Shown: positions 18,094 through 45,075 of the stretch, piece after piece
Layout: each line of letters opens with the position of its first letter
Position numbering within the stretch: position 1 is the stretch's first letter
Origin: an uncultured Bacilli bacterium
GTDB taxonomy: Bacteria; Bacillota_I; Bacilli_A; RFN20; CAG-449
DNA: 64,000 nucleotides
Direction of reading: 5' to 3'
Assembly (NCBI GenBank): GCA_947632435.1
Contig: CANRPC010000004.1
Span: 1-64,000, forward strand
Notes under the pieces: model-generated
The model's database searches: none
What the model was told of the DNA's origin: nothing
What the model saw: the letters and a program-made list of their open reading frames with translations, nothing else
Made by a program: the position numbers and the translations under genes

Positions 18094-18705
18094 TTAACTA
18101 TCTTTAGTTGGAGTATTTTTTACTGCTTCATTTCGTTTTAATACTTTTTTTGCAAAATGATTTCCAGTATTATATGCTGCTGATGCAACTGCAGATGCAA
18201 TTGTTAAATATCCAACACCTTTTAGTGCAATGCCTGCCGCCTTTTTTCCAGTTTCAATTTTTTTGCCGCCCGATTTTATAAGCATTCCTCCGATGGAACT
18301 TTTAATTAATGTTCCAGTGGCGATTCTTATAAAACTCTTGTCATTAATTTTTTTCGTAAGCTTCGAATTTGCAATCTCACGTTTTTGATCTTGAGCACGT
18401 TTATCAATTTCTAATTGCATTAATTCTTTAGCTCTTTTTTGAGAACCTTCTTTATATTTAGATTCTATTCTAGCTTTATTAATTTCATAAACTCGTTGAT
18501 CATCTAATGCACGATTTTCACTTCGTCTAGCAACTGATAAAGCCGATTGATCATTATTAATTCTTCGATTCTCTTTGTTGTAATCGTTATATCTTAGCAT
18601 ACCTTCTTTGGTTAAAGTACCATCTTTATTTTGAAATCGACGTATACCCCATTTTTGCCCTTTTATACCCCAGTGGCATAGTTCATTATTAATCTTATAA
18701 ATCAT
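18094..18705 (-). CDS. Head-region protein with HxGIKGQKWG tag, membrane-active C-terminus
   Basis: 203 residues. Residues ~11-35 carry CHWGIKGQKWGIRRFQ followed by KDGTLTKEG, a short motif widespread at the N-terminus of minor head-region proteins of Firmicutes phages. A charged, helical middle follows (KENRRINNDQSALSVARRSE). The C-terminal ~75 residues contain Gly/Ala/Ile-rich hydrophobic stretches (ATGTLIKSSIGGMLI and GVGYLTIASAVASAAYN). It may be an ejected or packaged protein; function not established. Its tag DNA is almost identical to that of the next gene. Confidence 0.6.
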   Translation of the reverse strand: MIYKINNELCHWGIKGQKWGIRRFQNKDGTLTKEGMLRYNDYNKENRRINNDQSALSVARRSENRALDDQRVYEINKARIESKYKEGSQKRAKELMQLEIDKRAQDQKREIANSKLTKKINDKSFIRIATGTLIKSSIGGMLIKSGGKKIETGKKAAGIALKGVGYLTIASAVASAAYNTGNHFAKKVLKRNEAVKNTPTKDS

Positions 18706-18708
18706 AAC

Positions 18709-19308
18709 TCATTCCCACCTTATTGGAGTATTATTTATTTTTCGTAACCAGTTTATTCCAAATCCATATTTAGCAGATGGAGTTTGACTTAAGGTATTAT
18801 AGATAACTCCTTTTGTCTTAACAGAACCTTTGTTAAACCCAACCTTTTGTCCTTGTTTATGAGCTGTTACGACGGCTTGTTTATAACGTTCAATTTTTTC
18901 ATTGCGCGCTTTTTCCAAGTGATCAATTTCTTCTTTATGTATTTTTTTTAAGTTATTTAAACTTTCGGTATGCTTTTTATTAAGCGCTATGATTTGCTCT
19001 TCATTCTTTTTATTTAGAGCTAATAATTTTTCTTCATTTTTTTTATGTGATAAATACCATGCAGTGCCTGTAGCTGCGGCGGCAGTTGCAACTAATACAC
19101 CACCAATAATGAATCCTTTTTTTGCTTTATTATTAACATTTTTTTGTTCATCTGTGGTACCGGTTTCATAAATGTCTTCATTATCATCATAGCGCTCACG
19201 ACCTTCATCAGTAAGTGTTCCATCTTTATTTTGAAATCGACGTATACCCCATTTTTGCCCTTTAATTCCATGGTGATATAAGTCACTATTGTATTGATAG
19301 TTTTCCAT
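18709..19308 (-). CDS. Head-region protein with HxGIKGQKWG tag and coiled coil
   Basis: 199 residues. Residues ~12-36 repeat the tag (YHHGIKGQKWGIRRFQ then KDGTLTDEG). A single hydrophobic segment (~GFIIGGVLVATAAAATGTAW) is followed by a long coiled coil of KKNEEKLLALNKKNEEQIIAL type, ending in a small C-terminal domain. It lies between terminase and its shorter paralogue in tag. A packaged or membrane-penetrating virion component is plausible; the evidence is only the tag, the transmembrane segment and the location. Confidence 0.6.
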   Translation of the reverse strand: MENYQYNSDLYHHGIKGQKWGIRRFQNKDGTLTDEGRERYDDNEDIYETGTTDEQKNVNNKAKKGFIIGGVLVATAAAATGTAWYLSHKKNEEKLLALNKKNEEQIIALNKKHTESLNNLKKIHKEEIDHLEKARNEKIERYKQAVVTAHKQGQKVGFNKGSVKTKGVIYNTLSQTPSAKYGFGINWLRKINNTPIRWE

Positions 19309-21119: not shown

Positions 21120-21791
21120 CTATTTAGTGACATCTTTAAGTTCTTTTAAATTTTTATTATTATTTTTTATGTCACTTACACCTTTAGCAATAGCAATACC
21201 ACTAGCTCCAATTGCAACAACTGCACCTATTGTTTGTAAAATTTCTCTAGCTTTTTCACTACCTGATTTTACATATTTAGAGTCGCCTTTTAAAGAACTA
21301 TATCGTTGTTCTAAATTTAATCGATTAATTCTTGCTATTAATTCTTCATCGGATAAATTTTTATAGCTTGGTCGTACAACTTTTCCATTTCCAGTTGGTA
21401 ATAATTTAGAGCTATCATTTAATAATTTACTAGAATCATATAATAGGTTCTGAGTAGAATTAAGTTGCTTATTTTTAATGTCTTTATACTCTTTTTTTGT
21501 ATCTTCTCGTAATTGTCTTTGTGTTTCATTATCAATATCAATTTCATTATATTTATAGTCATTTTCTTTTCCACGAAGTTTATAAGATGTTTTTCTTATG
21601 CTTTCTTGCTCATTATGTTCTTTTTCAATTGATGCTCTTTTGGCATAATATCTTTTTTTTCCTTCTTCTGTAAGTGTTCCGTCTTTGTTTTGAAATCGAC
21701 GTACACCCCAACGCATATTTTTAATGCCGCTATGACTTATCATATTTGACTGATTAAAGAAACATTGGTTACCATAATATTTAATTATCAT
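21120..21791 (-). CDS. Third tagged head-region protein
   Basis: 223 residues. Residues ~19-46 hold a diverged tag, SHSGIKNMRWGVRRFQ then KDGTLTEEGKKRY. Most of the rest is charged and helical; a hydrophobic segment near residues 185-205 (ILQTIGAVVAIGASGIAIA) looks membrane-spanning. AAAGGAGG precedes the ATG. Lies directly before terminase. Function unknown; grouped with the two tagged proteins downstream of terminase. Confidence 0.6.
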   Translation of the reverse strand: MIIKYYGNQCFFNQSNMISHSGIKNMRWGVRRFQNKDGTLTEEGKKRYYAKRASIEKEHNEQESIRKTSYKLRGKENDYKYNEIDIDNETQRQLREDTKKEYKDIKNKQLNSTQNLLYDSSKLLNDSSKLLPTGNGKVVRPSYKNLSDEELIARINRLNLEQRYSSLKGDSKYVKSGSEKAREILQTIGAVVAIGASGIAIAKGVSDIKNNNKNLKELKDVTK

Positions 21792-23422: not shown

Positions 23423-23692
23423 TTAGTACTTATAAACTAACTTATACTCAATAAATTTTCCTTCTTTTGAAAAAGCTCCTAAACGTATTATGCTATTAAT
23501 TGCTTCTTCAATAATTTTTTTGTTTTCTTCATCAGAAAGTTGATCTGAAGTATTTGTAATACTTGCTAAACGAGCACAAGTATTGTAACCTTCTTTTAAA
23601 TCAAAACAATTCCAATTATACCAATCATCGAATGGATCATATGGATTGTCTTCGGTAGTTAACCGTACTTCCTTATAGTCTTTTTGCTTCAT
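23423..23692 (-). CDS. Small phage protein downstream of the RNA-polymerase-like gene
   Basis: 89 residues. DPFDDWYNWNCFDLKEGYNTCARLASI followed by SDEENKKIIEEAI is a pattern I associate with short genes near phage terminases; function unknown. The ATG overlaps the stop of the preceding gene by four bases and has TGGAGGA upstream, so it is translationally coupled to the RNA-polymerase-like gene and may work with it. Confidence 0.65.
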   Translation of the reverse strand: MKQKDYKEVRLTTEDNPYDPFDDWYNWNCFDLKEGYNTCARLASITNTSDQLSDEENKKIIEEAINSIIRLGAFSKEGKFIEYKLVYKY

Positions 23693-26600
23693 TGTACAAT
23701 TCCTCCAGATAAATACTTGAGAATAGTTGAAGATGATACTCCTAAACGTGTTGCAATTTCAGCAGTTGTATGTCCATTTGCTTTTAAATTTTTAATTCTA
23801 TTTACTTTTGCTGCACTTAAAATTGAACCTTGTTTTCTAGGTGTTGCTAATTGCCTTAGTCTTTTGCTATCACAATATGGTATCATTGCTGCAAACATAG
23901 ATTTAGATATTGCACCCGCTTGAATTGCTGCCCATTCTCTATCAGTAAAATAAATTTCACGTCGATGTGCCCCAACTTTTTCTCTAGCTTTAGCCAATTC
24001 TTTTTGTTTTATTTTCTTTAAATCATCTTTATCAAGAATAGGATTTTCTTGAACAATGGCTTTAACTGCAGAATTTGTTAATAGTTGTGCCCTTCTCTCC
24101 CTTGGTTTATTTGATAAAGCTTCATTATATTTTTCTTTAATTGATGCTACTTCATCTTGAAATTCTTCTTTAGCTTGAGGTGAATATATAGTACCCTCAG
24201 TATGGAGAGCTTCTAATCTCGCCTCGTTTGCTAGAGTTTTCATACGATTAGCATAATTAGCATATGCTTGTTCTTGAGGAGTTCCTGAAGAAAGCATTCT
24301 TGCATCTTTTGCTTCAGCCATTTTAGTAGAATCCTGGGTGGCAATTTTTACTTTAATAGTTGATGGATCAACTTGAACATATTCCCCACTTTCATCTTTA
24401 AAATAATATTTTCCATCCTTAGCTATAGCATTTGCTACTACTTTTTTTCCCTTAGAATTTACATACTCTGTTTTATAATATTTGCGATTAGTATCATGAT
24501 ATAACTTTTCTCCTGTTTTAGGATTAACATAAAGCGTAATTACATCTTTTCTGTTAAATACTTCACCCGTTTTGTCATTAACATAAATATTATTATCTTC
24601 ATCAAATAGTCTTACTTCAGTTTTTCCATCACGTAAAAAGAATGCACCTTCTTTTCTTTCGTTGATAACTACTTTAGATTTTGCTTTAGAAATTAAAGTT
24701 GAAGCTCCACCATATCGTCCATTCTCTTTAGCTTGGTATTTCTTTTTTAATTCTGCAATATTATTATCAATTTCTGATTGTTTATAATCTAACTTATGTT
24801 TTTCGGCATCAATAACGACCATTGAGTGTTTAACAGCTCTAGCTAATTCAGATCTTGTTGCTCCTCCTAATGTCATATCTGTAATTAAATTTGAAATTAC
24901 ACCCATTTCTGTTTGGGTATTATTCATAATTTTAAATTCCTTACCTCCACGAAAATAATGTTCTTCACCATTTTTATCTACAACACATTTATCATATTGG
25001 TAAGATAATTTTGTATCAAATCCAACTAATTCTTGTAAAGGTTCACTATTTTTAATTTGTACATTTTCATTTAATGGTATTACCATTACAGTATCTCCAT
25101 CAAAATCTGCTCCAGATAAACGATCTGCCACAGCTTTACTTATACCAATTGCATCAGTAGGATTTTTGCTCATTACTTTTACACCTTCTGGATTTCGATT
25201 ATTAACTGATAAAATCGGTATTTCAAATGTTCCACCATGAGGATATCTTATTAATGCTACTTTAGTACCATCACCAAAATTTGGAGCATATACTTCATTA
25301 TCTTTTATGGTAGTTAATGGTAATATTACTTGATATCTTTGCCCTGGTAAAGGAACCGCTTTTAATTGAACAGCCGCAGCATCACAATCCTCAGCATATG
25401 ATTCTAGTAGAGATTTTCTCAAAGTTGGATTTGTTAATGACTTTATTTCATTAAACTCATCTTCTCTTTCTTGTATGGATAAATTTAATTGTTTATTAAT
25501 TAATTTTAAAGGTTGTTTTGCTAAAAACTGAGACGATAATGTATCAGCCCAAGCTGACCAATCACCTTCTTCAGCTCTTTTATTAATTAGTGAAAGTTTT
25601 TTCTCACCATTTTCATCTATATAATATGATTGTCCACCATGCTCTTTAATTAATGATCCAAAAGGATTCTCAGGATCTTTTTTAATGTTTTTATCAATAC
25701 TTTTTAAAACTTCTAGTTTGCTTTTATCAGAAGTTTTATTGGTATTAAAAATTACATCTACACCTTCTGGAAAGCTTTTGTCATCTCCATAAACTGCCAT
25801 TCCTTTAATAAAATGAGTATTATCTACAAGAATACGAACTTGTGCATAATTAACTCCTTCACCTAAATTTAAATCTTTGCAACCCCTTCTTATTTCAATA
25901 ATTCCATCTTTATTAATACCACCGTCTTCGGCATATCTAATTTTTAAACGTTTTGAATCCATAGATGCTGGATATTGAAAGCTTTTTTCAAAGGTGTCAC
26001 CATTATCATAAGAAATATAATCATTTAATGTTTTAACATCTTCAAAATTAAAAATATTTTTATGAGGAGTTCCAGGTTTTGCTAAAACTTTTATTGTTGT
26101 ATATTTACCAGCATTTGTAACTTGTGGAACACGACCTCCCCAAACTTCATAACCTTCCATTCTAAGCATTTCAACTGCGGTATTAAACTTTTCTGGAGAA
26201 ATTCCTAATTCACGTTCAACACCTTTTCCAATATCAACCATACCTTTTTGGTCAACAATCTTTTTTAAATTTTCTGATGTTTTTTCACAAATTTTCATTC
26301 TTGCTTCAGAATCCGCATTTAACAAAGAACGTACTGTAGATTCTCCTTTTAAACCTAATTTATCCGCAATTTGAGGATTAGATAAACCATCTTGTTTTAA
26401 TGATTTACATTTCGCTACTAAATCACTTCTTCTTTGATGTACAGCAATTGTATGAGCTGCTCTTAATTGAGTTGTTGATAATTCCATTACTTCTGCGATT
26501 TCTTTTTCTGCTAAACCTTCTTTTTTTAGTGATTCATAACGCGAAAGCCAATCACCAGAATGTTGATAAGGATTATCTCCAGATCCCCAAGGATATCTTC

Positions 26601-26760
26601 CAGATCTTCTTGGCATTCCATAATGTTTTAGAAATGTTTCATAATCAACAGGATCTTTATCTGAATATAATTCTTCTGGATAAATACCAGTGTGTTTTAA
26701 TTCTTCATAATTTTCAGCATAATCATTATATTCATAAAATAAATATAAATCGTCATCCAT
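23689..26760 (-). CDS. Two-barrel RNA-polymerase-like protein with DFDGD motif
   Basis: 1023 residues. Seen: an N-terminal tag-like HYGMPRRSGRYPWGSGDNP (46-64); two helix-turn-helix-like repeats (about 75-105, 113-146); a barrel-like segment FIKGMAVY...FPEGVDVIFN (317-339); then ALIRYPHGGTFEIPIL (502-517) and RLSGADFDGDTVMVIPL (547-563), whose D552, D554 and D556 match the metal-binding motif of RNA polymerase beta-prime (NADFDGDQMAVHVPL); a basic middle; and a C-terminal helix-turn-helix (985-1017). Known: the same motif in a single chain occurs in YonO of phage SPbeta and in crAss-like phage polymerases. Inferred: a phage DNA-dependent RNA polymerase. It sits between replication and packaging genes. 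Activity is unproven. Confidence 0.75.
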   Translation of the reverse strand: MDDDLYLFYEYNDYAENYEELKHTGIYPEELYSDKDPVDYETFLKHYGMPRRSGRYPWGSGDNPYQHSGDWLSRYESLKKEGLAEKEIAEVMELSTTQLRAAHTIAVHQRRSDLVAKCKSLKQDGLSNPQIADKLGLKGESTVRSLLNADSEARMKICEKTSENLKKIVDQKGMVDIGKGVERELGISPEKFNTAVEMLRMEGYEVWGGRVPQVTNAGKYTTIKVLAKPGTPHKNIFNFEDVKTLNDYISYDNGDTFEKSFQYPASMDSKRLKIRYAEDGGINKDGIIEIRRGCKDLNLGEGVNYAQVRILVDNTHFIKGMAVYGDDKSFPEGVDVIFNTNKTSDKSKLEVLKSIDKNIKKDPENPFGSLIKEHGGQSYYIDENGEKKLSLINKRAEEGDWSAWADTLSSQFLAKQPLKLINKQLNLSIQEREDEFNEIKSLTNPTLRKSLLESYAEDCDAAAVQLKAVPLPGQRYQVILPLTTIKDNEVYAPNFGDGTKVALIRYPHGGTFEIPILSVNNRNPEGVKVMSKNPTDAIGISKAVADRLSGADFDGDTVMVIPLNENVQIKNSEPLQELVGFDTKLSYQYDKCVVDKNGEEHYFRGGKEFKIMNNTQTEMGVISNLITDMTLGGATRSELARAVKHSMVVIDAEKHKLDYKQSEIDNNIAELKKKYQAKENGRYGGASTLISKAKSKVVINERKEGAFFLRDGKTEVRLFDEDNNIYVNDKTGEVFNRKDVITLYVNPKTGEKLYHDTNRKYYKTEYVNSKGKKVVANAIAKDGKYYFKDESGEYVQVDPSTIKVKIATQDSTKMAEAKDARMLSSGTPQEQAYANYANRMKTLANEARLEALHTEGTIYSPQAKEEFQDEVASIKEKYNEALSNKPRERRAQLLTNSAVKAIVQENPILDKDDLKKIKQKELAKAREKVGAHRREIYFTDREWAAIQAGAISKSMFAAMIPYCDSKRLRQLATPRKQGSILSAAKVNRIKNLKANGHTTAEIATRLGVSSSTILKYLSGGIVQ

Positions 26761-26763
26761 ATG

Positions 26764-27399
26764 TTAACTCCTCTCTATAATTGATTTAACAAGATTTGAT
26801 TTTGTAACAATTAAATCCATTATTTCTTTTATCTCTCCAGGTTCTGGAATTAATTTTAATGTTTCATGATTTTGATAAATCCGTAATTCAGTAGTGTATT
26901 TATAAGGATCTTGTTTATACTCCAAAAAGAAAAGAGCAGCATATATCATAGGTTGATTAAAAGAAGCTTGAGTTTTTCCATTTTTATAATCACTTATTCT
27001 TAAAATATTATTTTTTTCATCAACACTAATGGCATCTGTTGTTCCAAAACAAAAATCGTTATAATATAAAATGACTTCACTAGACATTCTAAAGCCAATA
27101 GAATCATTCACAAAAGGTATAAGATTTTCTAAAATATCATCGGCATCAAAAGCATCATAAGGAATAAAATTTTTATATAAAAAGTATTCTATAAGATGTT
27201 TATCTCTGCTATGAAGTTTCATACGTGATTTAATACAATCACTAGCTAACTGATGTATACAAGTTCCTATTTCAGCGGCATATTGACTATAAAATCTTTT
27301 AATTAAAGTTTCATTATCCCAATTGAGCCAATGATATCCACTTGCACTTAAAAAAGCATGCGTTCCTTTTAATTTTTCATGGTTATTCCAAATTATCAT
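26764..27399 (-). CDS. RecB-like PD-(D/E)XK exonuclease (Cas4/DUF2800-like)
   Basis: 211 residues with the RecB-nuclease order: AEIGTCIHQLASD (motif with His), CFGTTDAISVD (Asp), LRISDYKNGK (D-x-K), and QPMIYAALFFLEY (Q-x-x-x-Y). Metal-dependent DNA exonucleases of this kind are regular members of Firmicutes prophage replication cassettes. The gene overlaps the VRR-NUC gene by 17 bases and has AAGGAG upstream. Confidence 0.85.
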   Translation of the reverse strand: MIIWNNHEKLKGTHAFLSASGYHWLNWDNETLIKRFYSQYAAEIGTCIHQLASDCIKSRMKLHSRDKHLIEYFLYKNFIPYDAFDADDILENLIPFVNDSIGFRMSSEVILYYNDFCFGTTDAISVDEKNNILRISDYKNGKTQASFNQPMIYAALFFLEYKQDPYKYTTELRIYQNHETLKLIPEPGEIKEIMDLIVTKSNLVKSIIERS

Positions 27400-27736
27400 T
27401 ATTTATGTTCTCCTTATTTAAAAATTGTTGATTAAAAAATACACGCATTTCTTCAATTACATCTTCCATGTTTTCTGGATATATAAAACGACCAAAAGAA
27501 AGAGAATTTGCCAAATTAATATAATAATCTTGATTAGGACGATGTGACGAATTTTTACTTGCTTTGCATTCTAACATTGCCCATGATTTATAATAAATTA
27601 TTGTTAAATCAGGTATCCCCTGTAGATAATTAGGATCATTTTTAAGAATAATGCATTTATGAAAAATTTCTTTTAATCGTTTAATTAAAACTGATTGAAA
27701 TTCACTTTCTAATTTTTTTTCAATAATATTTTTCAT
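27383..27736 (-). CDS. VRR-NUC domain nuclease
   Basis: 117 residues, close to a minimal VRR-NUC domain. N-terminal Glu helix (ESEFQSVLIKRLKE), then LQGIPDLTIIYYKSWAMLECKASKNS with the catalytic D and E-x-K, and a Q-x-x-Y (NQDYYINL). Such phage enzymes act on branched or structured DNA. No Shine-Dalgarno is visible before the ATG; instead a U-rich stretch closing a long hairpin lies there, suggesting an RNA control element. Confidence 0.85.
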   Translation of the reverse strand: MKNIIEKKLESEFQSVLIKRLKEIFHKCIILKNDPNYLQGIPDLTIIYYKSWAMLECKASKNSSHRPNQDYYINLANSLSFGRFIYPENMEDVIEEMRVFFNQQFLNKENINNDNLE

Positions 27737-27827
27737 AATAAAAAAAAGAAAAGAACCAGTAAATTATTTCAATATAATAAAAAGTTGGCTAAAACAATTT
27801 TAAAATATAATAAAAGGTTCTTTCTCT
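27737..27827 (-). ncRNA. Structured leader or small RNA before the VRR-NUC gene
   Basis: Downstream of a copy of the repeated promoter-like element, AAAGAACC at the 5' side pairs with GGTTCTTT at the 3' side (9 pairs with neighbours), enclosing ~55 bases with a repeated TTTTATTATATT. The 3' arm runs into TCTTTTTTTATT, so a terminator-like end abuts the ATG of the next gene. It could be an attenuator or a separate small RNA. Confidence 0.4.
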
Positions 27828-27853
27828 CCATTAAAGGATATGTATTTTTTGCG
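27828..27853 (-). promoter_or_regulatory. Repeated phage promoter-like element, copy 1
   Basis: Minus strand reads CGCAAAAAATACA, eight bases, AATGG. One of seven copies with identical spacing; this one precedes the structured leader of the replication nucleases. Confidence 0.6.
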
Positions 27854-27880
27854 TGCTAAAAAAGATTATTTTCTGTTTAG

Positions 27881-28195
27881 GTGGCACTTTTTTTTCAAAA
27901 TATCATTTTTTATATATTTTTTTTTAAATATAAAATAATAAAATATTTTTGAAAAGTGGCACTTTTTAATAAATATCTTAGAAAAAATACAATTTTAATA
28001 TGATTTTTATATAAAAATATCTTTTTTTCACCCTTTTTTGATATATTTTATTTTTATATTACGTGTCACTTTTTATTAGAAAACTGGCACAAAAGTGGCA
28101 CCAATTAGACACTTTATTTATTTTTTTTGTTTTTTAAAGAAAAATAAATTGATTTATTAAATTAAAAAAATACTTACGTGTCATTTTTGTGTCAC
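27881..28195 (+). repeat. Direct GTGKCAC repeats, candidate phage replication origin
   Basis: A ~330-base gap with no gene, nearly pure A/T except for repeated GTGGCAC/GTGTCAC words, mostly followed by T-tracts: 27881, 27956, 28063, 28095, 28189, with near copies CTGGCAC (28084) and GTGTCAT (28178). All are in the same orientation, like iterons. The location beside the replication cassette suits an origin or an initiator/SSB binding region. The first copy is 27 bases beyond the promoter-like element. Confidence 0.5.
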
Positions 28196-28200
28196 TTTTT

Positions 28201-28674
28201 TTATGCTTTTTCTAATAAAATAAAAGGTGGATCATTATCTTTTTGATGAAAATATTTATGTATAATACTAAACTTAATTTTAAAACCAACTAGGGGTTCT
28301 AAAACGCATATAAATGTATTTGCATATACATTAAATGCATAATTAAAATTAACATCATTTCGATCTTGATAAATATATATTGGTAAATATGTTATCGAAT
28401 TAAAATAAGTAATTACATCTTTTAAAGATAAAATTGTATTTGTATATTTTTTGAATGTTTTTAATTGTTGTTCATTGATTACAAAATCATACATACTATG
28501 TTTCATTGCAATTAATAATTTTTTATCAATTAGTTGTTCATTAGTAATCTCATTTTTACCATCATGCAAAAATAAATATGTATTATTATTATTTATATTA
28601 TCAATTAAATTTCCATAACTATCTTTTAAATATTTTGGATATGAATAAATGTTTACTTTTTCGTATTCAGTCAT
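28201..28674 (-). CDS. Conserved-position hypothetical protein of replication cassette
   Basis: 157 residues, mixed alpha/beta, rich in Asn, Tyr and Ile. No motif recognised. The ATG overlaps the helicase stop (ATGA) and has TGGAGGA upstream, so it is co-translated with the helicase. Ends in a T-rich, repeat-bearing non-coding region. Confidence 0.6.
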   Translation of the reverse strand: MTEYEKVNIYSYPKYLKDSYGNLIDNINNNNTYLFLHDGKNEITNEQLIDKKLLIAMKHSMYDFVINEQQLKTFKKYTNTILSLKDVITYFNSITYLPIYIYQDRNDVNFNYAFNVYANTFICVLEPLVGFKIKFSIIHKYFHQKDNDPPFILLEKA

Positions 28675-29996
28675 ATAATTTCCTCCAGTATTTTATTTTT
28701 TTTATTAATTATTAAAGGTGCATAATCTTTATTATTAAAATTCTTTTTTTGCTTAAGTTTTTGATTAATTCTAATATCAATTTTAGATTTTGAAATTAAT
28801 ATATAATAATACAAATCTTGAAATGGTGTATTAAGTCTATCAATACGTCCCATAGCTTGATGCATAACTTTGTATGAATGATTTAATGAATAAAATATTA
28901 TTGTGTCTGTTTGGATACAATTCCATCCTTCACATCCAGCTGTATATTCAACTAAATATACCCATTTTGTTGTATTAAGTATTTCTTGATGTTTTTGACC
29001 ATTCCATTCTGAAAAAGGATAATTTGCATTCACTAAAAGTTTTCTTAATAATTCCAATTCATAATTAAATGAATAAAATATTATTACTTTTGGATGATTT
29101 GCAAGAATATCAAGAACCGCGTTTAAGCGTGTGATATCTGAATTTACTAATTTTCTTAATGTAAAACAGAATTCGCTTGCATTTTTAATTGGCTCATTTG
29201 TATAAATGTTCCAATGAGTACTATTTATTTGTTTATATTTATAAATATCATATTCAACAGATACATAACATGCATGTTTTATTGTTTTTCTTTCAAAATG
29301 CATATCAATTAGAATATCATTTCTATGTTTGATTAAAATGCCTTCATTAAAATATTTTTTTATACAAGGGTAAGGTGTATGGGTAGACCATATAATATGT
29401 TGATTACTAAAATCAGTTTTATTTTTATAAAAACCATTAGCAATAAACACAGGAATATAATCACTCCATGTATCGCCAGGTGTAGCTGATAATAATATCC
29501 ATTTATTATTTTTTGCTATTTTTAAAAATGATTTAACCCATACACCATAACCAACTAATCTTTGTTCATCTAATATAAAAAAAGCATTAGAAATATCTAT
29601 GTATTTTTTAATATTATTCCATGAGTCAATTATTATCTTGTTTTTAAAAAAATTACATTCCGAATTAGAAGACATACCAAACTTTGCTAATTCGTAATCC
29701 CATGTGTGACTATCACGATTTTTTGCAGTTGTAATAATATATAAATCACAAAGTTTTTTAATTGGAAAAGATATAAGTTTATTACTTTTTTTATCAGTAT
29801 CAACATCAAAAAATTCATGTTTTATATAAATACCTTTTTTGTTCTTTTTTATGTAAAAAACTTTTCCGCCTTGTGATTTATAATAATATGCAATGGCAGT
29901 CCTTGACTTACCAGAACCGACATCACCATTCAAAATGCAACCGTTTTTCATTTTTTTTAATGCGTCAGCCTGGTAGTCAAATAAAAGTTCTGCCAT
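28671..29996 (-). CDS. SNF2-like superfamily 2 helicase
   Basis: 441 residues. N-terminal Q-like LFDYQADAL, motif I LNGDVGSGKSRT (~23-33), motif II FILDEQRLVG (DEQR in place of the usual DEAH), motif III WILLSATPGDTWSDY, then motif V LVEYTAGCEGWNC and motif VI HQAMGRIDRLN with the arginine finger. These phage SNF2-type ATPases travel with VRR-NUC nuclease, SSB-like and polymerase genes in Firmicutes prophages and act on DNA in replication or recombination. It starts six bases after the SSB-like gene. Confidence 0.88.
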   Translation of the reverse strand: MAELLFDYQADALKKMKNGCILNGDVGSGKSRTAIAYYYKSQGGKVFYIKKNKKGIYIKHEFFDVDTDKKSNKLISFPIKKLCDLYIITTAKNRDSHTWDYELAKFGMSSNSECNFFKNKIIIDSWNNIKKYIDISNAFFILDEQRLVGYGVWVKSFLKIAKNNKWILLSATPGDTWSDYIPVFIANGFYKNKTDFSNQHIIWSTHTPYPCIKKYFNEGILIKHRNDILIDMHFERKTIKHACYVSVEYDIYKYKQINSTHWNIYTNEPIKNASEFCFTLRKLVNSDITRLNAVLDILANHPKVIIFYSFNYELELLRKLLVNANYPFSEWNGQKHQEILNTTKWVYLVEYTAGCEGWNCIQTDTIIFYSLNHSYKVMHQAMGRIDRLNTPFQDLYYYILISKSKIDIRINQKLKQKKNFNNKDYAPLIINKKNKILEEII

Positions 29997-30001: not shown

Positions 30002-30568
30002 TTAAAACGTATCTTCTTCTATTTTATTTAGTGCTTCGTCTGCTTCTTCATATTCAGCATAATATCCACCGTATAAATCGGAAGGTCTAAGCACTACTCT
30101 TAAATCATCTAAATATGCACTTGTTCTTGCCTTATCAAGCACAACAGTATGAAATAATTTAAATGTTAAATCAACTCTTTCAAAGGATGCAAAATCTAAA
30201 GATCCTAATGTTTCTGCAGTTAATACCTTTTTATATTTTGTTCCGTCCAATTTAGTACCGTATGTAGCTATTGTTGGTGGATATTCAGAATTAAGATTTA
30301 CTTTAATAGTAATGTATTTTAAACTATCCTCTGATGATTCTCCATCACGAATTCTTTCTTTTACATTTAAGCCTTCTTCTAATAATCGATCTGCTGCTTC
30401 TGTTGTTAAACATAAACAAAAGTTTCGATTGCCTTCACGATTAAAATCAGTTTTTCTTCCTGAAAAGTTTTTATACATGATAACTGCATTACGTACAGTT
30501 ATTCTTTTTCCTATTTTTTCAAATTCACTATTTGCAATAGCATCTTTAATGTTAGAATAATTTGCCAT
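30002..30568 (-). CDS. Phage ssDNA-binding-like protein (DUF2815-like)
   Basis: 188 residues starting MANYSNIKDAIANSEFEKIG; the start is fixed by AGGAGGAAATTATAAA immediately upstream. NFSGRKTDFNREGNRNFCL and the beta-rich KYITIKVNLNSEYPPTI and DLTFKLFHTVVLDKARTSAYLDDLRVV segments look like an OB-fold protein of the DUF2815 type, with an acidic C-terminal tail (EEADEALNKIEEDTF), as in single-strand-binding proteins that recruit partners. It lies between the polymerase fusion and the helicase. Confidence 0.65.
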   Translation of the reverse strand: MANYSNIKDAIANSEFEKIGKRITVRNAVIMYKNFSGRKTDFNREGNRNFCLCLTTEAADRLLEEGLNVKERIRDGESSEDSLKYITIKVNLNSEYPPTIATYGTKLDGTKYKKVLTAETLGSLDFASFERVDLTFKLFHTVVLDKARTSAYLDDLRVVLRPSDLYGGYYAEYEEADEALNKIEEDTF

Positions 30569-30627
30569 TTTATAATTTCCTCCTATTATTCTTTTTTTTT
30601 TAAATATCATTATTCTAAAGAGCAAAT

Positions 30628-33600
30628 TTAATCATCACTAGTAAATTGCTCATAATCTCCATATTTGTTAATTGTTTCAATTGCTTCATTAACAAAATTA
30701 TCAAAGTAAGATAAATCAATATCATTTTCTTTATTAAAAAGTTTTACATCTTCTGATTCTAACCATCTATATCCAGATGCATCATTAACAGAATCATATT
30801 TAATGCTTCCGTCTTTGTTATATGCTTTTCTCAAAAGTAATCCACCATTACATCCAGGTTTAATTGGACAAAATGAACCAACTTTTCCTACAAATTTCAT
30901 AGCATGACCTTCTTTTATTTTTTCATCTATTTCGTTATCTGTAAGATCAGAATATGATTGCAACATCATTTCTTCTTTTTTGGTAAATTTTGTTTCATTA
31001 TTCTTTTTACGTAAGCGAATACTTTTTAATTTTTCATAAATTGTTACATCTGGTTTATTTTCATTTAAATCAAGATATATTGCCGTACGCACTTCTTTTG
31101 TTATACATAAATCACTAAATTCAATTGACTCTTTTGTAAAACATTTTTTATAGACGTAAGGCATTTGAAATTGTGCTCCAGTTGCTGTCCATTTGCCAGC
31201 TTCCTCGCCAAATTTTACTTTTGCAATATAAACTGATTTATTTACAAGACATAAACGTTCATAAGTTGCTTCATGTTCAAATTCATAACCATATTTTTTA
31301 GCAAATTCCATACAAAAATTCTTAATATCGTCTGTCATATTTGGAATCTTAATAGAATCTGTTTTAATATGTGCTACTTCAAAACCTCTTGATTTAACTT
31401 CATCTTCTAATGTTCTCATAAATAAAGCGCCTCTTAAAGCAACAATATTGTTAACATTTCGTGGATCTTTAAAAGGATTATCAAAATTTGCACAAGTTAA
31501 CCCATAAACGGAATTTATAGGAATTTTTAAGGCTTTTGACAATCTCTTTGCTTTTGTAGCATCAGTTAAATATTTTTTTAATTTTCCACCAAACAATTTA
31601 CCAACAGATTCAAAATCACCATGCTTAATATAAACTCTAGCATCAACTAAATTTTTATAATTTATGGTATAATCACCAAAGAAATTTAATGCAATAGCAC
31701 TATGTGGATGCATTGAAACAATATCAAGTAATCCAACATTACTATACATTCCAGGGGTAGCATCAACAAAACCACCAGAGCCTAAATCAGTTCCTCGATA
31801 CATATTTACATAACTAACCGATCCATTAGCACCAACACATTTTTTGTATTCATATCCAGGAAATTCCTTAGATAAATCTGTATATACTAATTGAGGGTGC
31901 TTTTCATTACCAAATATCAATTTAGTTGTAATACTATTTGTTGTATCATTCACAGTCATATCTGCTATATCCGCTAATATTTCTCTAGCTAAAAAATCTT
32001 CTTGCGTCGCTTTCCAAACTGCTTCTGTAGAAAGTACATCATTATCACAATATTCAGCAACTTCTATCCATTTTTCTTCGGGTATAGGTTTATCCCATTC
32101 ATATCCTAATTCTTTATGATGTAAACCTAATTCAATTTCCCATTTTTTTAAGGATTTTTTATCGCTTGAATAATCGTAAATATCTGTGTAGGACAAGTTA
32201 TAAGCGGCACCAAAAGTCCCTTTGCGCTCATTTATTATTGATTGTGATAAAATAAATAATTGTTCACAAGAATATCCTAAATGTTTAGCATAAATCATGT
32301 GATTATCATAACTTCTATTATTAAATCCAACTAACCTATATTTAAATAAAGTTTCTATTTCTGCAGCACTTGGATTAATCATTCTATTAACTCCAGGAAC
32401 ATCTAATATTTTCCAATTTACAAGAAATAAATTTGGGAATGACTCCACATCAAAAAATACAATTGGTGCTTCATCATTATTTATAAATTCTGCATTTTCT
32501 TCGGATTTAAATTTCATCATCATGACTTTTTTTATACATTTTTCAGATTGATGTGTACTTGCTGCTGCAAAATTTAATATTGCATCATACATATTTGTCA
32601 CATCGTATTTAATTCCACTATTATAAGCTTCTTCTAAATCATTATAAATATAATTTATAGACACTGTTGTCGAGCCATATTTTTTATGTAAGTTTTCTAA
32701 AATTCTATTACGTAAATGTTTATCATCTTGAATAGTTTGTGTACTAATCACTTTTCGTTCTCCTTTAAAAGGTAATCCAGATGATATGGTATTAATTTCT
32801 TCAGAATTACATTTTGTTAATTTTCTTCTAAGAGAACTATTACCAGTAAATATCTTTATTTCAATATCATCTGCATATAATCTATTAAGCTTCTTAATAT
32901 CGCCGTTATAAATATAATGCAAGTGAATACCTGCACCAGATTTGCTTAATTCAGCATATGTTTTAGGAAATTTTGAAGCTTCTTTAAGATTTAATTCGTA
33001 AGATTTATTGCCTTGTTCATCTTTTAAATCAAAATCTATGACTATATGATTTTCAGGCAATTTTAAGTAATGTAATTCATTACTGGAAATATCTTTTAAT
33101 GTTGTAGTAACATCAGACCATTTTTTTATTGGTGTACCACCTTCATTGGCATATTGTGCTGGATAATCTTTGCATAAAATATCAAGTTTAGAAGGTTGTA
33201 CTTTAAAATCTATCATTTCATTTATTACATTATTTGTTTTATTACTTTTAATCAGTTTTTGCTTTTCAAACAATTCTTTTTTAAAACCTGAATAGTAATG
33301 CCTAACATAATCGTCACCAACATGTTTCCGCTCATCATAATCTCGAAAATAATCTTTTAATTCTGTTTTAAACATGCTTTTACTATATGGAAATTTTACT
33401 TTGGAATCTTCACAATATTGTTTATACATATCCCAAGCTGATTTTAATGTTGTTCCATCTTCATGACTAAAAACAATATAACAATCATCAATAAAATTGA
33501 AGAAATCATTAGATTCTTCCATCATTCCCATCGGTTTATAATCATCAAATATTTCGGGATTATTTTCATATACTTTTTTACATTTATATGCTATATGTCC

Positions 33601-34560
33601 CAGTTCAAATTTGACTTGTTCTTTTAGGAACAAATATCTATCTTTAGGAATAATATTTCCACTTGGATGTACATCAATAAGTCTTCTCATAAGTCCAGAT
33701 TTTCCATCTGTAATTTTTACATATTTATTACTTGCAACAATTAAAAAAGTTGAAAACTCTCTATAATATAAAGATTTATGTTTTTCATTAACTGTCATTT
33801 CTTCATGAGATACAATTGAGTTTATTGTTTCATTTTTTTCTATTTTTGATAAATCACCATCAAAATTAAACGCTACTAATGGATTTTTCTTAAATTGTTC
33901 TAAAGCAAATTGATTTGAAGATGATCCTAATGAAGATGCATTAAATACTGAATAATATCCTTTAAATAACATTTGGATAATTTTTAATATTGTACCTTTA
34001 CCTGCTCCTGGTGCACCATATAACACTAAAAATTTTTCAATGTATTTTGAAGCCCCAGTAACAATTGCACCAATTGACCATTCAATTTTTAGACGTTCTT
34101 CTTCAGAATATAAAGTTGAAATAAGTTCATCCCATGCATCACATTTTCCTTCTTCAAGAGCATAAGGAAGATGTTGACTAGAATAATCTTCTTTGGTTGT
34201 TTTTTGATTTAAAAATACTAATGAATTATCTAGATTTTTAAAATTATTACACATTTGTTTTTTGCAATAATTATGCCACTTATCAATATATCCAGTTTCA
34301 GCATCCCAAAGATGCATTATTTTAAAATGTTCATCAAACGTTCTATTTTTTTCTTTTGCATATTTATCTAATTCAAAATCAATCAATCGAATTGCATCTT
34401 GCTCATCAGTAGACCATCTATTTTGTTCTTCATCCCAAATAGCATAAAAATCATTTGATTTAATCATGAGGTCATTACTTTTACAAATTATAAATCTTGG
34501 ATAGATTTCCACAACACCATATTTTAAACTCCGTTCAGATATCATTAAGAAATCTAACAT
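30628..34560 (-). CDS. Replicative fusion: SF3/D5 helicase, AEP-type primase, family B DNA polymerase
   Basis: About 1310 residues in one frame (an in-frame TTG lies two codons upstream; AGGAGG serves either). Rough domains: 85-330, D5-like SF3 helicase with Walker A LYGAPGAGKGT (~182-192), Walker B AFNFDGD and sensor LIVASNK; ~455-600, archaeo-eukaryotic-primase-like core with VIDFDLKD, SGAGIHLHYIY and IEIKIFTGN; ~700-850, 3'-5' exonuclease (FFDVESFP, VGFNNRSYDNHM, YCDNDVLST); ~940-1150, polymerase with motif A LLDIVSMHPHSAI, motif B KIPINSVYG and motif C HIKTDSIKI. Motif C has K-T-D instead of D-T-D. This would unwind, prime and copy phage DNA as one protein. The domain order, helicase first, is unusual. 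Confidence 0.88.
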   Translation of the reverse strand: MLDFLMISERSLKYGVVEIYPRFIICKSNDLMIKSNDFYAIWDEEQNRWSTDEQDAIRLIDFELDKYAKEKNRTFDEHFKIMHLWDAETGYIDKWHNYCKKQMCNNFKNLDNSLVFLNQKTTKEDYSSQHLPYALEEGKCDAWDELISTLYSEEERLKIEWSIGAIVTGASKYIEKFLVLYGAPGAGKGTILKIIQMLFKGYYSVFNASSLGSSSNQFALEQFKKNPLVAFNFDGDLSKIEKNETINSIVSHEEMTVNEKHKSLYYREFSTFLIVASNKYVKITDGKSGLMRRLIDVHPSGNIIPKDRYLFLKEQVKFELGHIAYKCKKVYENNPEIFDDYKPMGMMEESNDFFNFIDDCYIVFSHEDGTTLKSAWDMYKQYCEDSKVKFPYSKSMFKTELKDYFRDYDERKHVGDDYVRHYYSGFKKELFEKQKLIKSNKTNNVINEMIDFKVQPSKLDILCKDYPAQYANEGGTPIKKWSDVTTTLKDISSNELHYLKLPENHIVIDFDLKDEQGNKSYELNLKEASKFPKTYAELSKSGAGIHLHYIYNGDIKKLNRLYADDIEIKIFTGNSSLRRKLTKCNSEEINTISSGLPFKGERKVISTQTIQDDKHLRNRILENLHKKYGSTTVSINYIYNDLEEAYNSGIKYDVTNMYDAILNFAAASTHQSEKCIKKVMMMKFKSEENAEFINNDEAPIVFFDVESFPNLFLVNWKILDVPGVNRMINPSAAEIETLFKYRLVGFNNRSYDNHMIYAKHLGYSCEQLFILSQSIINERKGTFGAAYNLSYTDIYDYSSDKKSLKKWEIELGLHHKELGYEWDKPIPEEKWIEVAEYCDNDVLSTEAVWKATQEDFLAREILADIADMTVNDTTNSITTKLIFGNEKHPQLVYTDLSKEFPGYEYKKCVGANGSVSYVNMYRGTDLGSGGFVDATPGMYSNVGLLDIVSMHPHSAIALNFFGDYTINYKNLVDARVYIKHGDFESVGKLFGGKLKKYLTDATKAKRLSKALKIPINSVYGLTCANFDNPFKDPRNVNNIVALRGALFMRTLEDEVKSRGFEVAHIKTDSIKIPNMTDDIKNFCMEFAKKYGYEFEHEATYERLCLVNKSVYIAKVKFGEEAGKWTATGAQFQMPYVYKKCFTKESIEFSDLCITKEVRTAIYLDLNENKPDVTIYEKLKSIRLRKKNNETKFTKKEEMMLQSYSDLTDNEIDEKIKEGHAMKFVGKVGSFCPIKPGCNGGLLLRKAYNKDGSIKYDSVNDASGYRWLESEDVKLFNKENDIDLSYFDNFVNEAIETINKYGDYEQFTSDD

Positions 34561-34575
34561 TTTCAATTTGACCTC

Positions 34576-36243: not shown

Positions 36244-37239
36244 TTAACATTTTACATACGACATAAATGTTTTTTTGTGATTACCTTTTTTATCGTAACC
36301 ACCTGTAAGAATATCTCCATCTGGATTAAATTCTAGAACCATTCCAGGATTTCCACTACGAATAATTTCACGTGCTCTATATGAATAAGAACCATCAGGA
36401 TTTGTTAAACCAAATGAAACACGATTAGCACGAGTTGAATCTTCTGGATCATAAATCCATCCTATTACTTTTGCTTGTTGTCTTTGTCTAACTGTTAACC
36501 AACCCATTTGATAACCTAATGTTTCCCATACATCTTCCATAAATAAATATCCTTGAATCTTCAATTTCATGGTCAATGAACTTTCTTTGGCAATTAATAA
36601 ATCTAAATTATAATTAACGTTTTCTACAAATCCAGGAATTGTTTCATCAAACATTGCGATAAAATCTCCAGGAATAGGTTTTTCTTCTAATGTTGAAATT
36701 TCTTCTAATTCTCCAGTATCTTTATTAAGAACTTGTTTCTTTGTTTCTTTTAATCCTTTTACAATTTCGTCATCTACTGCTTCACCATATTTTTCTTTTA
36801 TTCTATTTCTATATGTAGAATATCCAGCTTTAACTGATGCATAAGCAGCTGCTAACGCCGCATTTCGATTTGCCATTATGTTATGGTTACCAATCGTTGA
36901 AGCAACTGAACAAGCATATAATAATATTGTTGGTGCATAAATTTTTAATATTTTTCCGCTTGATTTAGCCAAAGTTTTTATTATACAATTGCGTGCAGTT
37001 GTTTTATTTATTTTTCTTTTTTCATCATTATATAAATCATTTATATCACTAATTTTATTTTTAGTTTCTTCAATTACTGGCATAGCTTTATGACTTGCAA
37101 CTGAAGCAGTTACAATAGCAATACCACTAGCGGCAATACTTGTTATTGTTAGTATTGTTGGTAAATTCTTTCTAACAAAATATAATAATCCGCTTTTGAA
37201 TCTAATTCTTGAAATCATTTTGTTTATTATTTTATCCAT
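36244..37239 (-). CDS. DUF6353-like membrane protein, paralogue A
   Basis: 331 residues. N-terminal half has two hydrophobic blocks (LPTILTITSIAASGIAIV and LKIYAPTILLYACSVASTIG) followed by NIMANRNAALAAAYASVKAGYSTYRNRIKEKYGEAVDDEIVKG; the C-terminal half is soluble, ending with Gly-rich lines (GNPGMVLEFNPDGDI). The RNAALAAAYA/YRN signature is that of DUF6353 phage membrane proteins. Two further paralogues lie upstream. Role unknown; TGGAGGA precedes the start. Confidence 0.75.
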   Translation of the reverse strand: MDKIINKMISRIRFKSGLLYFVRKNLPTILTITSIAASGIAIVTASVASHKAMPVIEETKNKISDINDLYNDEKRKINKTTARNCIIKTLAKSSGKILKIYAPTILLYACSVASTIGNHNIMANRNAALAAAYASVKAGYSTYRNRIKEKYGEAVDDEIVKGLKETKKQVLNKDTGELEEISTLEEKPIPGDFIAMFDETIPGFVENVNYNLDLLIAKESSLTMKLKIQGYLFMEDVWETLGYQMGWLTVRQRQQAKVIGWIYDPEDSTRANRVSFGLTNPDGSYSYRAREIIRSGNPGMVLEFNPDGDILTGGYDKKGNHKKTFMSYVKC

Positions 37240-38362: not shown

Positions 38363-39112
38363 TTACATATTTTTTATATCGCCTAATTTTAAATTTATTT
38401 CGTAAGTTAAGCATGGCTTATCATTAGGTGCAATACATGAATCTAAATATCCATCTAGTAATGTCCCACCTACAATTTGCCAACCAACATCGCTTCCATT
38501 AAACGAATCTTGTAATCCTAATTCTTCTAAATATCTATTTAAAGAAATTATTCCATTATCGTTTAATGCATAAGAATTTAATTTGTTAATAGCTTTACAA
38601 ATATCATTCCATGTTGATTGGAAATAAGCACCAGTGATAGGCTCTTTAAACAAATGTTTGGAATCGTCTGATAAAATTATTTCTTTAGAACCAGACTTTT
38701 CTTCAATTTTCTTATTTGTGTTTTGTGTAATTTGTTTTTCTTTTTCATCATCTAAAACTTTTTTAGTTTGATTTCGATATTCATTAAATGCAGATTCTGT
38801 TAATGCACATGTTGTTGCAAGAGTAATGTTTCTTTTTGCATATATTCTATTACTTGCAATTATGCATACTGTTGAACCTAAAAAGCCTAAAACAGGTGGA
38901 ATATAATACTTCCAACAAAGTTTAACTTTTTCTTTTTTTGTCAGTTTTTTTTCAGTTGAATAACGTTCTATTTGTTTGACTGATTTAAGAGTGGCTTTAC
39001 TAAGTTCAATTGAAGTTAATACAAAACCTATTAAACCTGTTCCTGTCAAACATTCTGGTTCATGATCCAGTAACCAATTTTGAATATTATCGATAAAGAA
39101 TTTCTTCATCAT
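38363..39112 (-). CDS. DUF6353-like membrane protein, paralogue B
   Basis: 249 residues. Same layout as the other two paralogues: hydrophobic TGLIGFVLTSIEL and PPVLGFLGSTVCIIASNRIYAKRNITLATTCALTESAFNEYRNQTKK, then a soluble C-terminal domain with NRYLEELGLQDSF and DVGWQIVGG. It overlaps the upstream paralogue by 26 bases, suggesting tandem duplication within one operon. Confidence 0.7.
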   Translation of the reverse strand: MMKKFFIDNIQNWLLDHEPECLTGTGLIGFVLTSIELSKATLKSVKQIERYSTEKKLTKKEKVKLCWKYYIPPVLGFLGSTVCIIASNRIYAKRNITLATTCALTESAFNEYRNQTKKVLDDEKEKQITQNTNKKIEEKSGSKEIILSDDSKHLFKEPITGAYFQSTWNDICKAINKLNSYALNDNGIISLNRYLEELGLQDSFNGSDVGWQIVGGTLLDGYLDSCIAPNDKPCLTYEINLKLGDIKNM

Positions 39113-39989: not shown

Positions 39990-40003
39990 TATTTTTTTTC
40001 CTC

Positions 40004-40345
40004 CTAACATTTTTTTAAATAATTTAATAATTTAGTATAAATTTTTATTTTCATATATATTGACATTTTTTCTTTTTGTAATTTGGCATTTTCTAAATCT
40101 GTATATAAAAAGATTATTTCCACTATACATTCATCAATCGGATCAATCGGATCATAAAAATATAAAGATGAATTTAAAATATTATAAATTTGATCAGATA
40201 TTTCTTTTGCTACTTGCCTCCCAACTAAATTCATCCGTTTAATAATTCCGTTGTTTAATTTTAAATTAGAAAAATAATCATGCATTACAAAATTTTGATC
40301 AATATAATTTAAGGCGAGTAAGAATTTTTTATAGTTATCATCCAT
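40004..40345 (-). CDS. Hypothetical accessory protein
   Basis: 113 residues, all-helical by eye (FLLALNYIDQNFVMHDYFSNL...), strong AAGGAG before the ATG. No motif recognised. It heads the operon of DUF6353 paralogues C and B. Confidence 0.55.
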   Translation of the reverse strand: MDDNYKKFLLALNYIDQNFVMHDYFSNLKLNNGIIKRMNLVGRQVAKEISDQIYNILNSSLYFYDPIDPIDECIVEIIFLYTDLENAKLQKEKMSIYMKIKIYTKLLNYLKKC

Positions 40346-43805: not shown

Positions 43806-44981
43806 ATGTTAATTAATTGTGGAGAATGTGGCAAACAAATTTCAGACAAGGCAGTAATGTGCCCACATTGTGGATATCCTATTGGTTCTAATTTAAAAAA
43901 AATAAAAGTGAAAGCACACAAAAGATTACCAAATGGCTTTGGTCAAATAACAAAAGTCACCTATCATAATTTAAATAAGCCATATAGAGTGATGACTACA
44001 ATTGGAGTTAATGAAAAAGGAAAGCCAATAGTCAAATTATTAGAACCAGTCGCTTATTTTAAAACATATAATGAAGCCTATGAGGCTTTGTTAAATTATA
44101 ATAAATTAAAAAATAATTCGGGTTCACAGATAAATATGACTATGAATGATTTGTATGAAAAGTGGATTAAAAATAACTTTGATCAAAATATAAATAAAAA
44201 AACGCTTGTGATTTATAGATCAAATTGGAATATTTGTAAAGACTTACATGATGTTCAAATATCATCTTTAACAGTAATCAAATTAAAGGAATTTATTGAA
44301 AATCTTAATACCACTTCTGGTCAAAAAATTCGTATAAGAAATATGTTATCAACAATGTTAAAATATGCAATTTCTCTTGATTTAATAGATAAAAATATTG
44401 CTAGTAACATTATATTGCCAATTGAAATTAAGATGGATAGTAAAAATAAATATCGTGGTCATGAAAGTTTTACATTAGAAGAAATGAAAATATTATGGAA
44501 TAATACAGACAATAAAATTGTTAAATTAATATTAGTTCAATGTTTTATGGGATGGCGACCAACAGAATTATGTAGTTTACGCAAAGAAAATATTAATATA
44601 AACGATATGATTATTACTGCTGGTGTCAAAACGGAAAGTGGCAAAAATAGATCAGTACCTATTCATCCATTAATTCAAAATTTTGTGATTGAAATATATA
44701 ATGATCTTTGTAATAGAAATACTGCTTTGATGTTTTATATTACTTATCGTTCGTACTTTATTCAAATATTAAAAAAAATTGGTATTAAAAATAATCATAA
44801 ACCACACGATTGTCGTGTGACTTTTATTACAAATTGTAAAACTAATGGAGTTGAAGAATATAGCATAAAACGTTTTGCAGGTCATAAAATTCAAGACATT
44901 ACAGAATCCGTATATACAAAGCATGATATAAAATGGTTTAAAAATGAAATTAATAAACTAAAAAAATATGTTTATGAATAA
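43806..44981 (+). CDS. int: Tyrosine integrase with N-terminal zinc ribbon
   Basis: 391 residues. Residues 1-28 are a zinc ribbon (NCGECGKQISDKAVMCPHCGYPIG), then an arm-binding region, a SAM-like core-binding domain (~115-210) and a catalytic domain with GWRPTELCSLRKENI (Arg), KTESGKNR (Lys), KPHDCRVTF (H-x-x-R), FAGHKIQD (His) and SVYTKHDIKW (Tyr nucleophile). It integrates and excises the prophage. The only rightward prophage gene; GAGG lies 9 bases before the ATG. Confidence 0.93.
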   Translation: MLINCGECGKQISDKAVMCPHCGYPIGSNLKKIKVKAHKRLPNGFGQITKVTYHNLNKPYRVMTTIGVNEKGKPIVKLLEPVAYFKTYNEAYEALLNYNKLKNNSGSQINMTMNDLYEKWIKNNFDQNINKKTLVIYRSNWNICKDLHDVQISSLTVIKLKEFIENLNTTSGQKIRIRNMLSTMLKYAISLDLIDKNIASNIILPIEIKMDSKNKYRGHESFTLEEMKILWNNTDNKIVKLILVQCFMGWRPTELCSLRKENININDMIITAGVKTESGKNRSVPIHPLIQNFVIEIYNDLCNRNTALMFYITYRSYFIQILKKIGIKNNHKPHDCRVTFITNCKTNGVEEYSIKRFAGHKIQDITESVYTKHDIKWFKNEINKLKKYVYE

Positions 44982-45056
44982 CAAAATTTGTAATAAAATT
45001 TAAACTTATTTTAAACCTTAATTTGTAGAAAATAATTACACAAAAAATCTATTTAT

Positions 45057-45075
45057 GCATACACAATTCATACAC
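45057..45075 (-). repeat. Inverted copies of the GTGTATGAA repeat; probable attachment-end region
   Basis: GCATACAC (45057-45064) and TTCATACAC (45067-45075) are minus-strand copies of the repeats upstream of int. The 155-bp AT-rich gap between int and the first chromosomal gene should contain the right prophage junction; the core cannot be identified because the left end is not in view. Confidence 0.45.

Follow-up and report, generated by a model that had tools for sequence, protein, structure and literature searches.

A candidate replication origin in phages encoding a helicase-primase-polymerase fusion protein

Introduction

SaPIs depend on a helper phage and are not known to carry a PolB domain, and P4 has a second copy of its origin repeats in crr. 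Among the described initiators closest to the protein studied here, Cch2 of SCCmec, a relative of the SaPI5 Rep, uses its C-terminal domain to bind a 23-bp region of direct repeats, and its helicase activity requires the iteron AAGTG (PMC7581432, in excerpt). The alpha protein of P4 binds the repeats of its origin by means of a winged helix (PMC4234260, in excerpt), and HelPrimPolB proteins have been described as a group of B-family polymerases (PMC7544198, in excerpt). No origin is mentioned in the excerpted text of the latter paper, nor does such an origin appear in the excerpts of the FP_oengus paper (PMC5883640) and of a survey of Arthrobacter phages (PMC5513430). In searches of an open-access library we found no earlier description of the origin proposed here.

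Here we analyze a noncoding gap within a 64-kb stretch of bacterial DNA, which is called the window throughout. An earlier note on this DNA had proposed that GTGKCAC repeats in the gap form an iteron-like phage replication origin suited to an SF3 helicase fusion. From the comparison of sequences with those of relatives we propose that replication of the prophage very probably starts in the gap, an origin that would be read by the phage's own fusion of helicase, primase and polymerase (HelPrimPolB).

Results

The prophage and its replication cassette

The window consists of a prophage followed by host genes. The structural and replication genes of the prophage lie on the minus strand and extend to about 43 kb. 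The cassette is arranged in the order polymerase, annealing protein, SNF2-type helicase, orf157, gap, VRR-NUC, exonuclease and single-chain RNA polymerase (Table 1), so that about 2.4 kb with three genes (those of the annealing protein, the helicase and orf157) separate the polymerase gene from the gap. The RNA polymerase, encoded downstream of the proposed origin, combines a DFDGD motif, as in YonO, with a C-terminal helix-turn-helix and is conserved in this in all five aligned sequences.

Some further features of the prophage were recorded. Between the integrase gene and the host genes there is a gap of 14% GC (44982-45136), which is the likely location of the attachment site. Three minus-strand ORFs near the terminase and portal genes (18094-18705, 18709-19308 and 21120-21791) have the N-terminal motif H.GIK...WG.RRFQNKDGTLT in common. 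In the early region three membrane-type ORFs on the minus strand (36244-37239, 38363-39112 and 39087-40010) look alike, and the corresponding region of FP_oengus contains three ORFs annotated as DUF6353.

Table 1. Coordinates of the features in the window
Feature	Position	Strand	Remarks
Single-chain RNA polymerase	23689..26760	-	phrog_4291; DFDGD motif, C-terminal helix-turn-helix
Exonuclease	26764..27399	-	
VRR-NUC-type endonuclease	27383..27736	-	phrog_93; VRR-NUC label from annotated relatives
Noncoding gap, proposed origin region	27737..28200		between VRR-NUC and orf157; 464 bp, 18.3% GC
Promoter-like motif CGCAAAAAATACATATCCTTTAATGG	27828..27853	-	between core and VRR-NUC; common to relatives
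Likeliest origin core (box, A/T spacer, box)	27880..27967	-	spacer 27890-27953, 64 bp, 3 G/C
Box GTGGCAC	27881..27887		
Box GTGGCAC	27956..27962		centre of palindrome AAAAGTGGCACTTTT at 27952-27966
Box GTGTCAC	28063..28069		
Near-box CTGGCAC	28084..28090		next box 11 bp away
Alternative core	28085..28194		two-box arms 28177-28194 and 28085-28102; 74-bp spacer, 9% GC
Box GTGGCAC	28095..28101		
Extra AAGTG pentamer (CACTT on +)	28110..28114	-	
Near-box GTGTCAT	28178..28184		next box 11 bp away
Box GTGTCAC	28189..28195		
orf157, without clear family	28201..28674	-	one sub-threshold Pfam match
SNF2-type DNA helicase	28671..29996	-	
Single-strand annealing / ssDNA-binding protein (SSAP)	30002..30625	-	
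HelPrimPolB-type protein, proposed initiator	30628..34566	-	1312 aa
Winged-helix segment, proposed box reader	33283..33447	-	residues 374-428
Integrase	43806..44981		

Domains and predicted fold of the fusion protein

The polymerase matches phrog_4210 over residues 4-1311 and also matches DNA primase and DNA polymerase PHROGs. It comprises an SF3 helicase (DUF5906, residues 182-295), a winged helix at about residues 374-428, a primase-like middle part, whose primase motifs were assigned by eye, and PolB, and thus holds SF3 helicase, PrimPol and PolB in one chain, the combination by which HelPrimPolB proteins are recognized. In an AlphaFold2 model of residues 1-700 (45 sequences, mean pLDDT 80.8) the SF3 domain is followed by two helices and two strands (H374-388, H396-406, E407-416 and E419-428). 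Residues 8-422 of the model gave the SaPI5 primase-helicase 7om0_A as the top match by Z (Z 21.0, rmsd 4.6, 371 aligned), with AsfvPrimPol and poxvirus D5/E5 next by Z; when matches were ranked by Foldseek E-value, AsfvPrimPol came first. By the fold of this segment the protein would have the build of a cognate initiator, an SF3 core with a C-terminal DNA-binding domain. For the winged helix alone Foldseek found nothing at an E-value of at most 0.001, and the matches obtained were generic winged helices (best Z 6.8), among them the origin-binding domain of P4 (1ka8; Z 5.4, rmsd 2.9, 70 aligned), which is a generic match as well; that the SaPI5 Rep is absent among the matches listed for this segment excludes nothing.

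Repeats in the gap

The gap contains five exact GTGKCAC boxes and two copies with one mismatch. In 2000 dinucleotide shuffles the sequence of the gap never reached five exact GTGNCAC sites (shuffle mean 0.007), and five of the eight GTGNCAC sites of the whole window lie inside it, with 2.63 expected window-wide. AAGTG, the iteron of Cch2, occurs seven times, a count that was likewise reached in 0 of 2000 shuffles and, among 548 overlapping windows of 464 bp, only in the one at 27841. The best count for any 7-mer family with a single N was 6, which was seen in 0 of 500 shuffles of the gap; elsewhere in the 64 kb it was reached by 2 of 270 windows of 464 bp.

The repeats noticed earlier are thus real, and to call their surroundings A/T-only is roughly correct, but their description as direct, same-direction copies holds only in part. 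GTGNCAC is an odd palindrome (AAAAGTG-G-CACTTTT at 27952-27966); on the plus strand K always stands at its centre, and only in this base do the boxes share one orientation, whereas the side of the A-tract varies, and because of this the boxes point both ways. Read as AAGTG they are found on the plus strand at 27954 and 28093 and on the minus strand at 27885, 27960, 28067, 28110 and 28193. The gap offers several short iterons within A/T-rich DNA between genes, as in origins of the SaPI5-Rep/Cch2 type, without the single orientation of all iterons that marks a direct-repeat iteron origin. The spacing of the boxes agreed with a helical period of 10.6 bp (R 0.91, P 0.013 against random sites), but P rose to 0.13 with the two 11-bp pairs held fixed, and phasing was dropped. 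No switch in the sign of the GC skew was observed at the gap in either the window or FP_oengus.

A conserved element in relatives

The polymerase fusion matched 377 annotated phage records, and for 252 of these the match covered 80% or more of the query. We collected 160 polymerase loci, composed of the best 80 viral and the best 80 bacterial-genome matches, and extended them to 168 by adding the window itself, FP_oengus and MT835485, together with two close viral contigs and three copies carried by one related genome; only 59 of these loci reach VRR-NUC, since many end before it. Single-protein scans for close relatives of the window returned two viral contigs by the polymerase and one by the RNA polymerase, and with so few of them fine footprinting is impossible. 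Among 147 genomes, mostly of the same order and including the window's own, matches were found in 7, and full-length matches elsewhere only in G075. Three contigs of this genome (C5, C6 and C7; L024-L029) carry three differing copies of the replication cassette with differing box words.

A scan for clusters of degenerate 8-mers in mostly noncoding windows gave significant noncoding clusters in 47 of the 168 loci, each lying either after the helicase gene or upstream of that of the polymerase. The window scored 10.6, compared to a 99.9th percentile of 6.08 and a maximum of 7.4 in 2160 shuffled windows. The remaining 121 loci are not all true absences, because the scan was restricted to mostly noncoding windows and many loci end before VRR-NUC. 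An earlier and cruder 7-mer scan had found a cluster in 43 of the 168 loci; it missed the window because two spellings split its exact 7-mers, and eight of its clusters (L023, L086, L090, L091, L106, L133, L161 and L186) were rejected as unrelated words, some of them at other places. Among 194 loci scanned for inverted arms there were 44 whose best arms scored beyond the 99th percentile of the shuffles; these arms lie upstream of the polymerase in 8 loci, between helicase and VRR-NUC in 27 and after the helicase in 9. The window equals this threshold, and several loci with cores recognized by eye fall below it.

Regular cores could be cut from 35 loci. They are inverted pairs of boxes around an A/T spacer, mostly 55-58 bp long: two boxes (as GCCCACTTTCCCACTTTTTTT) are followed by the spacer, which in many cases contains a TTAATTGYGATAAAAA-like stretch close to its beginning, and by the inverted boxes (AAAAGTGGGCAAGTGGGC). 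The earlier note's reading of direct repeats has to be modified for the family, whose core is built of inverted pairs. An iterated profile seeded with the 35 cores and applied to all loci except the window scored 76 loci, some of them from the same contigs, above the best shuffled locus (12.2 bits). The best match was located between helicase and VRR-NUC in 42 loci, after the helicase in 20 that do not extend to VRR-NUC, upstream of the polymerase in 8 and, in 6 polymerase-less loci, again between helicase and VRR-NUC; at any other place it was found in 0 of 76. When the loci were made nonredundant by polymerase, 59 remained, with 36, 17 and 6 in the first three positions and none elsewhere, and in the 36 the distance from the core to the VRR-NUC gene that follows ranges from 225 to 3058 bp. 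AAGTG is present in 65 of 74 nonredundant cores, a share that is inflated since the profile itself selects AAGTG.

A profile match was obtained in 46 of the 73 loci that extend from polymerase to VRR-NUC; the other 27, including the window, have none. Other scans, partly by eye, showed clusters or inverted boxes with other words (GGTGAA, GTACCA, GTGTGAA, TGTCAC and CTCCCG) in 18 of the 27, the window among them, and nothing clear in the other nine (L161, L168, L174, L207, L211, L218, L220, L221 and L222). As the word varies among the profile-less loci, the layout persists while the word drifts.

The core is also found in named phages, two of them beyond the Bacillota: in FP_oengus (E 9.4e-9), where the gap with the core lies upstream of the endonuclease gene, in Arthrobacter phage Teacup in the gap preceding gp85 (E 1.2e-9) and in Streptomyces phage DrGrey in the gap after its helicase (E 8e-5), where, in a locus of 61% GC, it coincides with the lowest-GC 60 bp. 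Ten annotated phages were tested with the profiles (L235-L244), and two gave a clear match. Inspection by eye revealed other repeated words in four of them, JoyLin, contig89, Odesza and P092; no repeated words were seen in Mudcat, Duffington and 1706, the stretches of the first two stopping short of the VRR-NUC end, and Thiqqums, tested with the profile alone, gave no clear match. Conservation of the repeats with the gene cassette, which the earlier note had proposed as a check, is thus observed for place and architecture but not for the sequence of the boxes. Only if such drift is allowed does the comparison speak against an absence of the repeats in relatives, the outcome it had named as evidence against an origin.

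A proposed core in the window

A profile of ten GTGYCAC-type cores, picked by hand from relatives, has its best match within 25 kb at 27882-27961 (12.2 bits, E 0.0033), a match of high composition bias whose score is equaled in 1 of 200 shuffles. The main core profile gave at best 7.0 bits (E 0.1) in the window, and the iterated profile gave no match at E 10 or better. The alternative core scores 12.8, which is the 99th percentile of the per-locus best scores in shuffles. The order of core, promoter-like motif and endonuclease gene is, as far as read, the same in L054 and in L227 and L050, the closest relatives of the window by RNA polymerase (57% for L227, and 62% over residues 30-736 for L050). 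We regard the gap of the window as a probable divergent member of the conserved element, its own core match being marginal. The window's own core is the weakest link of the argument, and the conserved place together with the covariation in relatives is the strongest.

Promoter-like motif

The 26-bp motif has a consensus of about CGCRnnAAAnACAnnnnn[CT]TTTATRR, or with TATAATRR at its end. It was drawn by eye, partly from the very loci in which it was counted, and occurs in 156 of 189 loci, 580 times on the plus (coding) strand and 6 times on the minus strand, compared to 5 times in shuffles. FP_oengus has 11 copies on the plus strand and 0 on the minus strand, with none in 10 shuffles. The motif is a candidate for a promoter used by the phage RNA polymerase or by a host polymerase that the phage has modified. 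Further copies are present in the window at 42740 and 43096 on the minus strand, and also in L022.

Covariation of boxes and proteins

We compared box profiles with protein distances by partial Mantel tests in 74 nonredundant loci, with 17 cores, that of the window among them, placed by hand and with permutations that leave phylogeny in. Given the rest of the polymerase, the values were 0.269 for SF3 (reached in 0 of 500 permutations) and 0.232 for the winged helix (1/500), compared to 0.133 for the N-terminal part (20/500), 0.084 for PolB (64/500) and -0.063 for the primase part (393/500). SF3 and winged helix together gave 0.476-0.584 given each of five other proteins, namely helicase, VRR-NUC, exonuclease, RNA polymerase and annealing protein (0/300 each), while these five gave -0.043 to 0.091 given SF3 and winged helix (42 to 205 of 300). 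The sequence of the boxes tracks the SF3 and winged-helix part and neither the rest of the polymerase nor the neighbours. In the 57 loci with a downstream core, away from the polymerase gene, the value for SF3 and winged helix was 0.331 (0/300), so that plain linkage is no explanation; in the 17 loci with a core upstream of the polymerase it was not significant (0.164, 21/300). The boxes are probably read by each virus's own fusion enzyme.

Discussion

The proposal of a phage replication origin is supported by place, architecture, covariation, the SaPI5 Rep-like fold and the AAGTG shared with Cch2, and the SF3 helicase fusion, favored by box covariation and fold, is the best candidate for its initiator. 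In the mechanism that we propose, multimers of HelPrimPolB would use the winged helix behind the SF3 domain to bind the boxes that contain AAGTG, and would load there as SF3 hexamers. The A/T-only spacer between the inverted boxes would presumably be melted by the same protein, unwinding would proceed outward, and the strands would be passed to the primase domain, where priming may occur, and to the PolB domain of the same polypeptide. One polypeptide would then be initiator, replicative helicase, primase and polymerase reading its own origin, and we suggest, tentatively, that lineages may have re-tuned the boxes around an AAGTG-like theme together with SF3 and winged helix into replication-specificity (incompatibility-like) groups inside a single widespread family of phages with hosts in the Bacillota and Actinomycetota.

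The boxes could instead be operators of a transcription regulator acting on the promoter-like element at 27828-27853, which would serve the VRR-NUC, exonuclease, RNA polymerase and late operon. About 30 bp separate the motif from the nearest box, it is found at most 220 bp upstream of VRR-NUC in 57 of 76 loci having VRR-NUC, and the boxes are palindromic like the operators of dimers; however, the cluster is not bound to one operon, as it is located 225 to 3058 bp before VRR-NUC or, in six loci, upstream of the polymerase. Moreover, the box sequence does not track VRR-NUC, exonuclease and RNA polymerase given SF3 and winged helix, and operators would leave the conserved A/T spacer without a role, so that we consider this explanation unlikely.

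Still less probable, in our judgment, is that the helicase-polymerase binds the boxes for another step, such as copy control, recombination-dependent replication, the start of packaging or partition. Covariation indicates a probable binder and not a purpose, and the genes of the annealing protein, exonuclease and endonuclease adjoin the element, but inverted boxes, an A/T spacer and an SF3 initiator-like fold together correspond to origins of the SaPI/SCCmec type (PMC7581432, in excerpt), and in none of the 76 loci was the best profile match found at another place. Chance repeats in A/T-rich DNA are very improbable: the low complexity of the gap and the two other windows that equal its count for some single-N 7-mer family would fit them, whereas the shuffles for GTGNCAC and AAGTG and the conservation of place and architecture in relatives do not.

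The reading as an origin provides a testable element for phages with helicase-primase-polymerase fusions, including the cultured Teacup and DrGrey and the sequenced gut prophage FP_oengus. If it is true, a complete replicon from origin to polymerase would, in most relatives, amount to one phage protein and a DNA element of about 100 bp, which would be useful for plasmids in gut bacteria that are hard to engineer and would be a model of the joint change of initiator and origin sequences.

Compared to SCCmec Cch2, the window shares AAGTG repeats in an intergenic site beside replication genes and an initiator akin to the SaPI5 Rep with a C-terminal dsDNA-binding domain, the likeness resting here on fold; Cch2 has three direct iterons right after the helicase gene (PMC7581432, in excerpt), whereas we observed seven AAGTG in both orientations at a distance of 2.4 kb downstream from the gene of the polymerase. 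In relatives there are inverted pairs around an A/T spacer, and helicase, primase and polymerase form one chain here. Short iterons and an SF3-type Rep are likewise common to the SaPIs, the likeness to Rep being drawn from the fold of residues 8-422, but SaPI origins lie directly downstream of rep (PMC7581432, in excerpt), and the gap does not lie directly downstream of its proposed initiator gene. Because of the three genes and about 2.4 kb in between, we class the element as working like origins of the SaPI5-Rep/Cch2 type and not as a member of them. P4 alpha is similar in being a primase-helicase initiator with a winged helix, a generic fold match here, and differs in its TOPRIM primase and in having no polymerase domain, while the protein of the window has PolB (PMC4234260, in excerpt). 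With the HelPrimPolB group it shares the same order of SF3 helicase, PrimPol and PolB (PMC7544198, in excerpt), and what is new here is the proposed origin element that is added to this known group.
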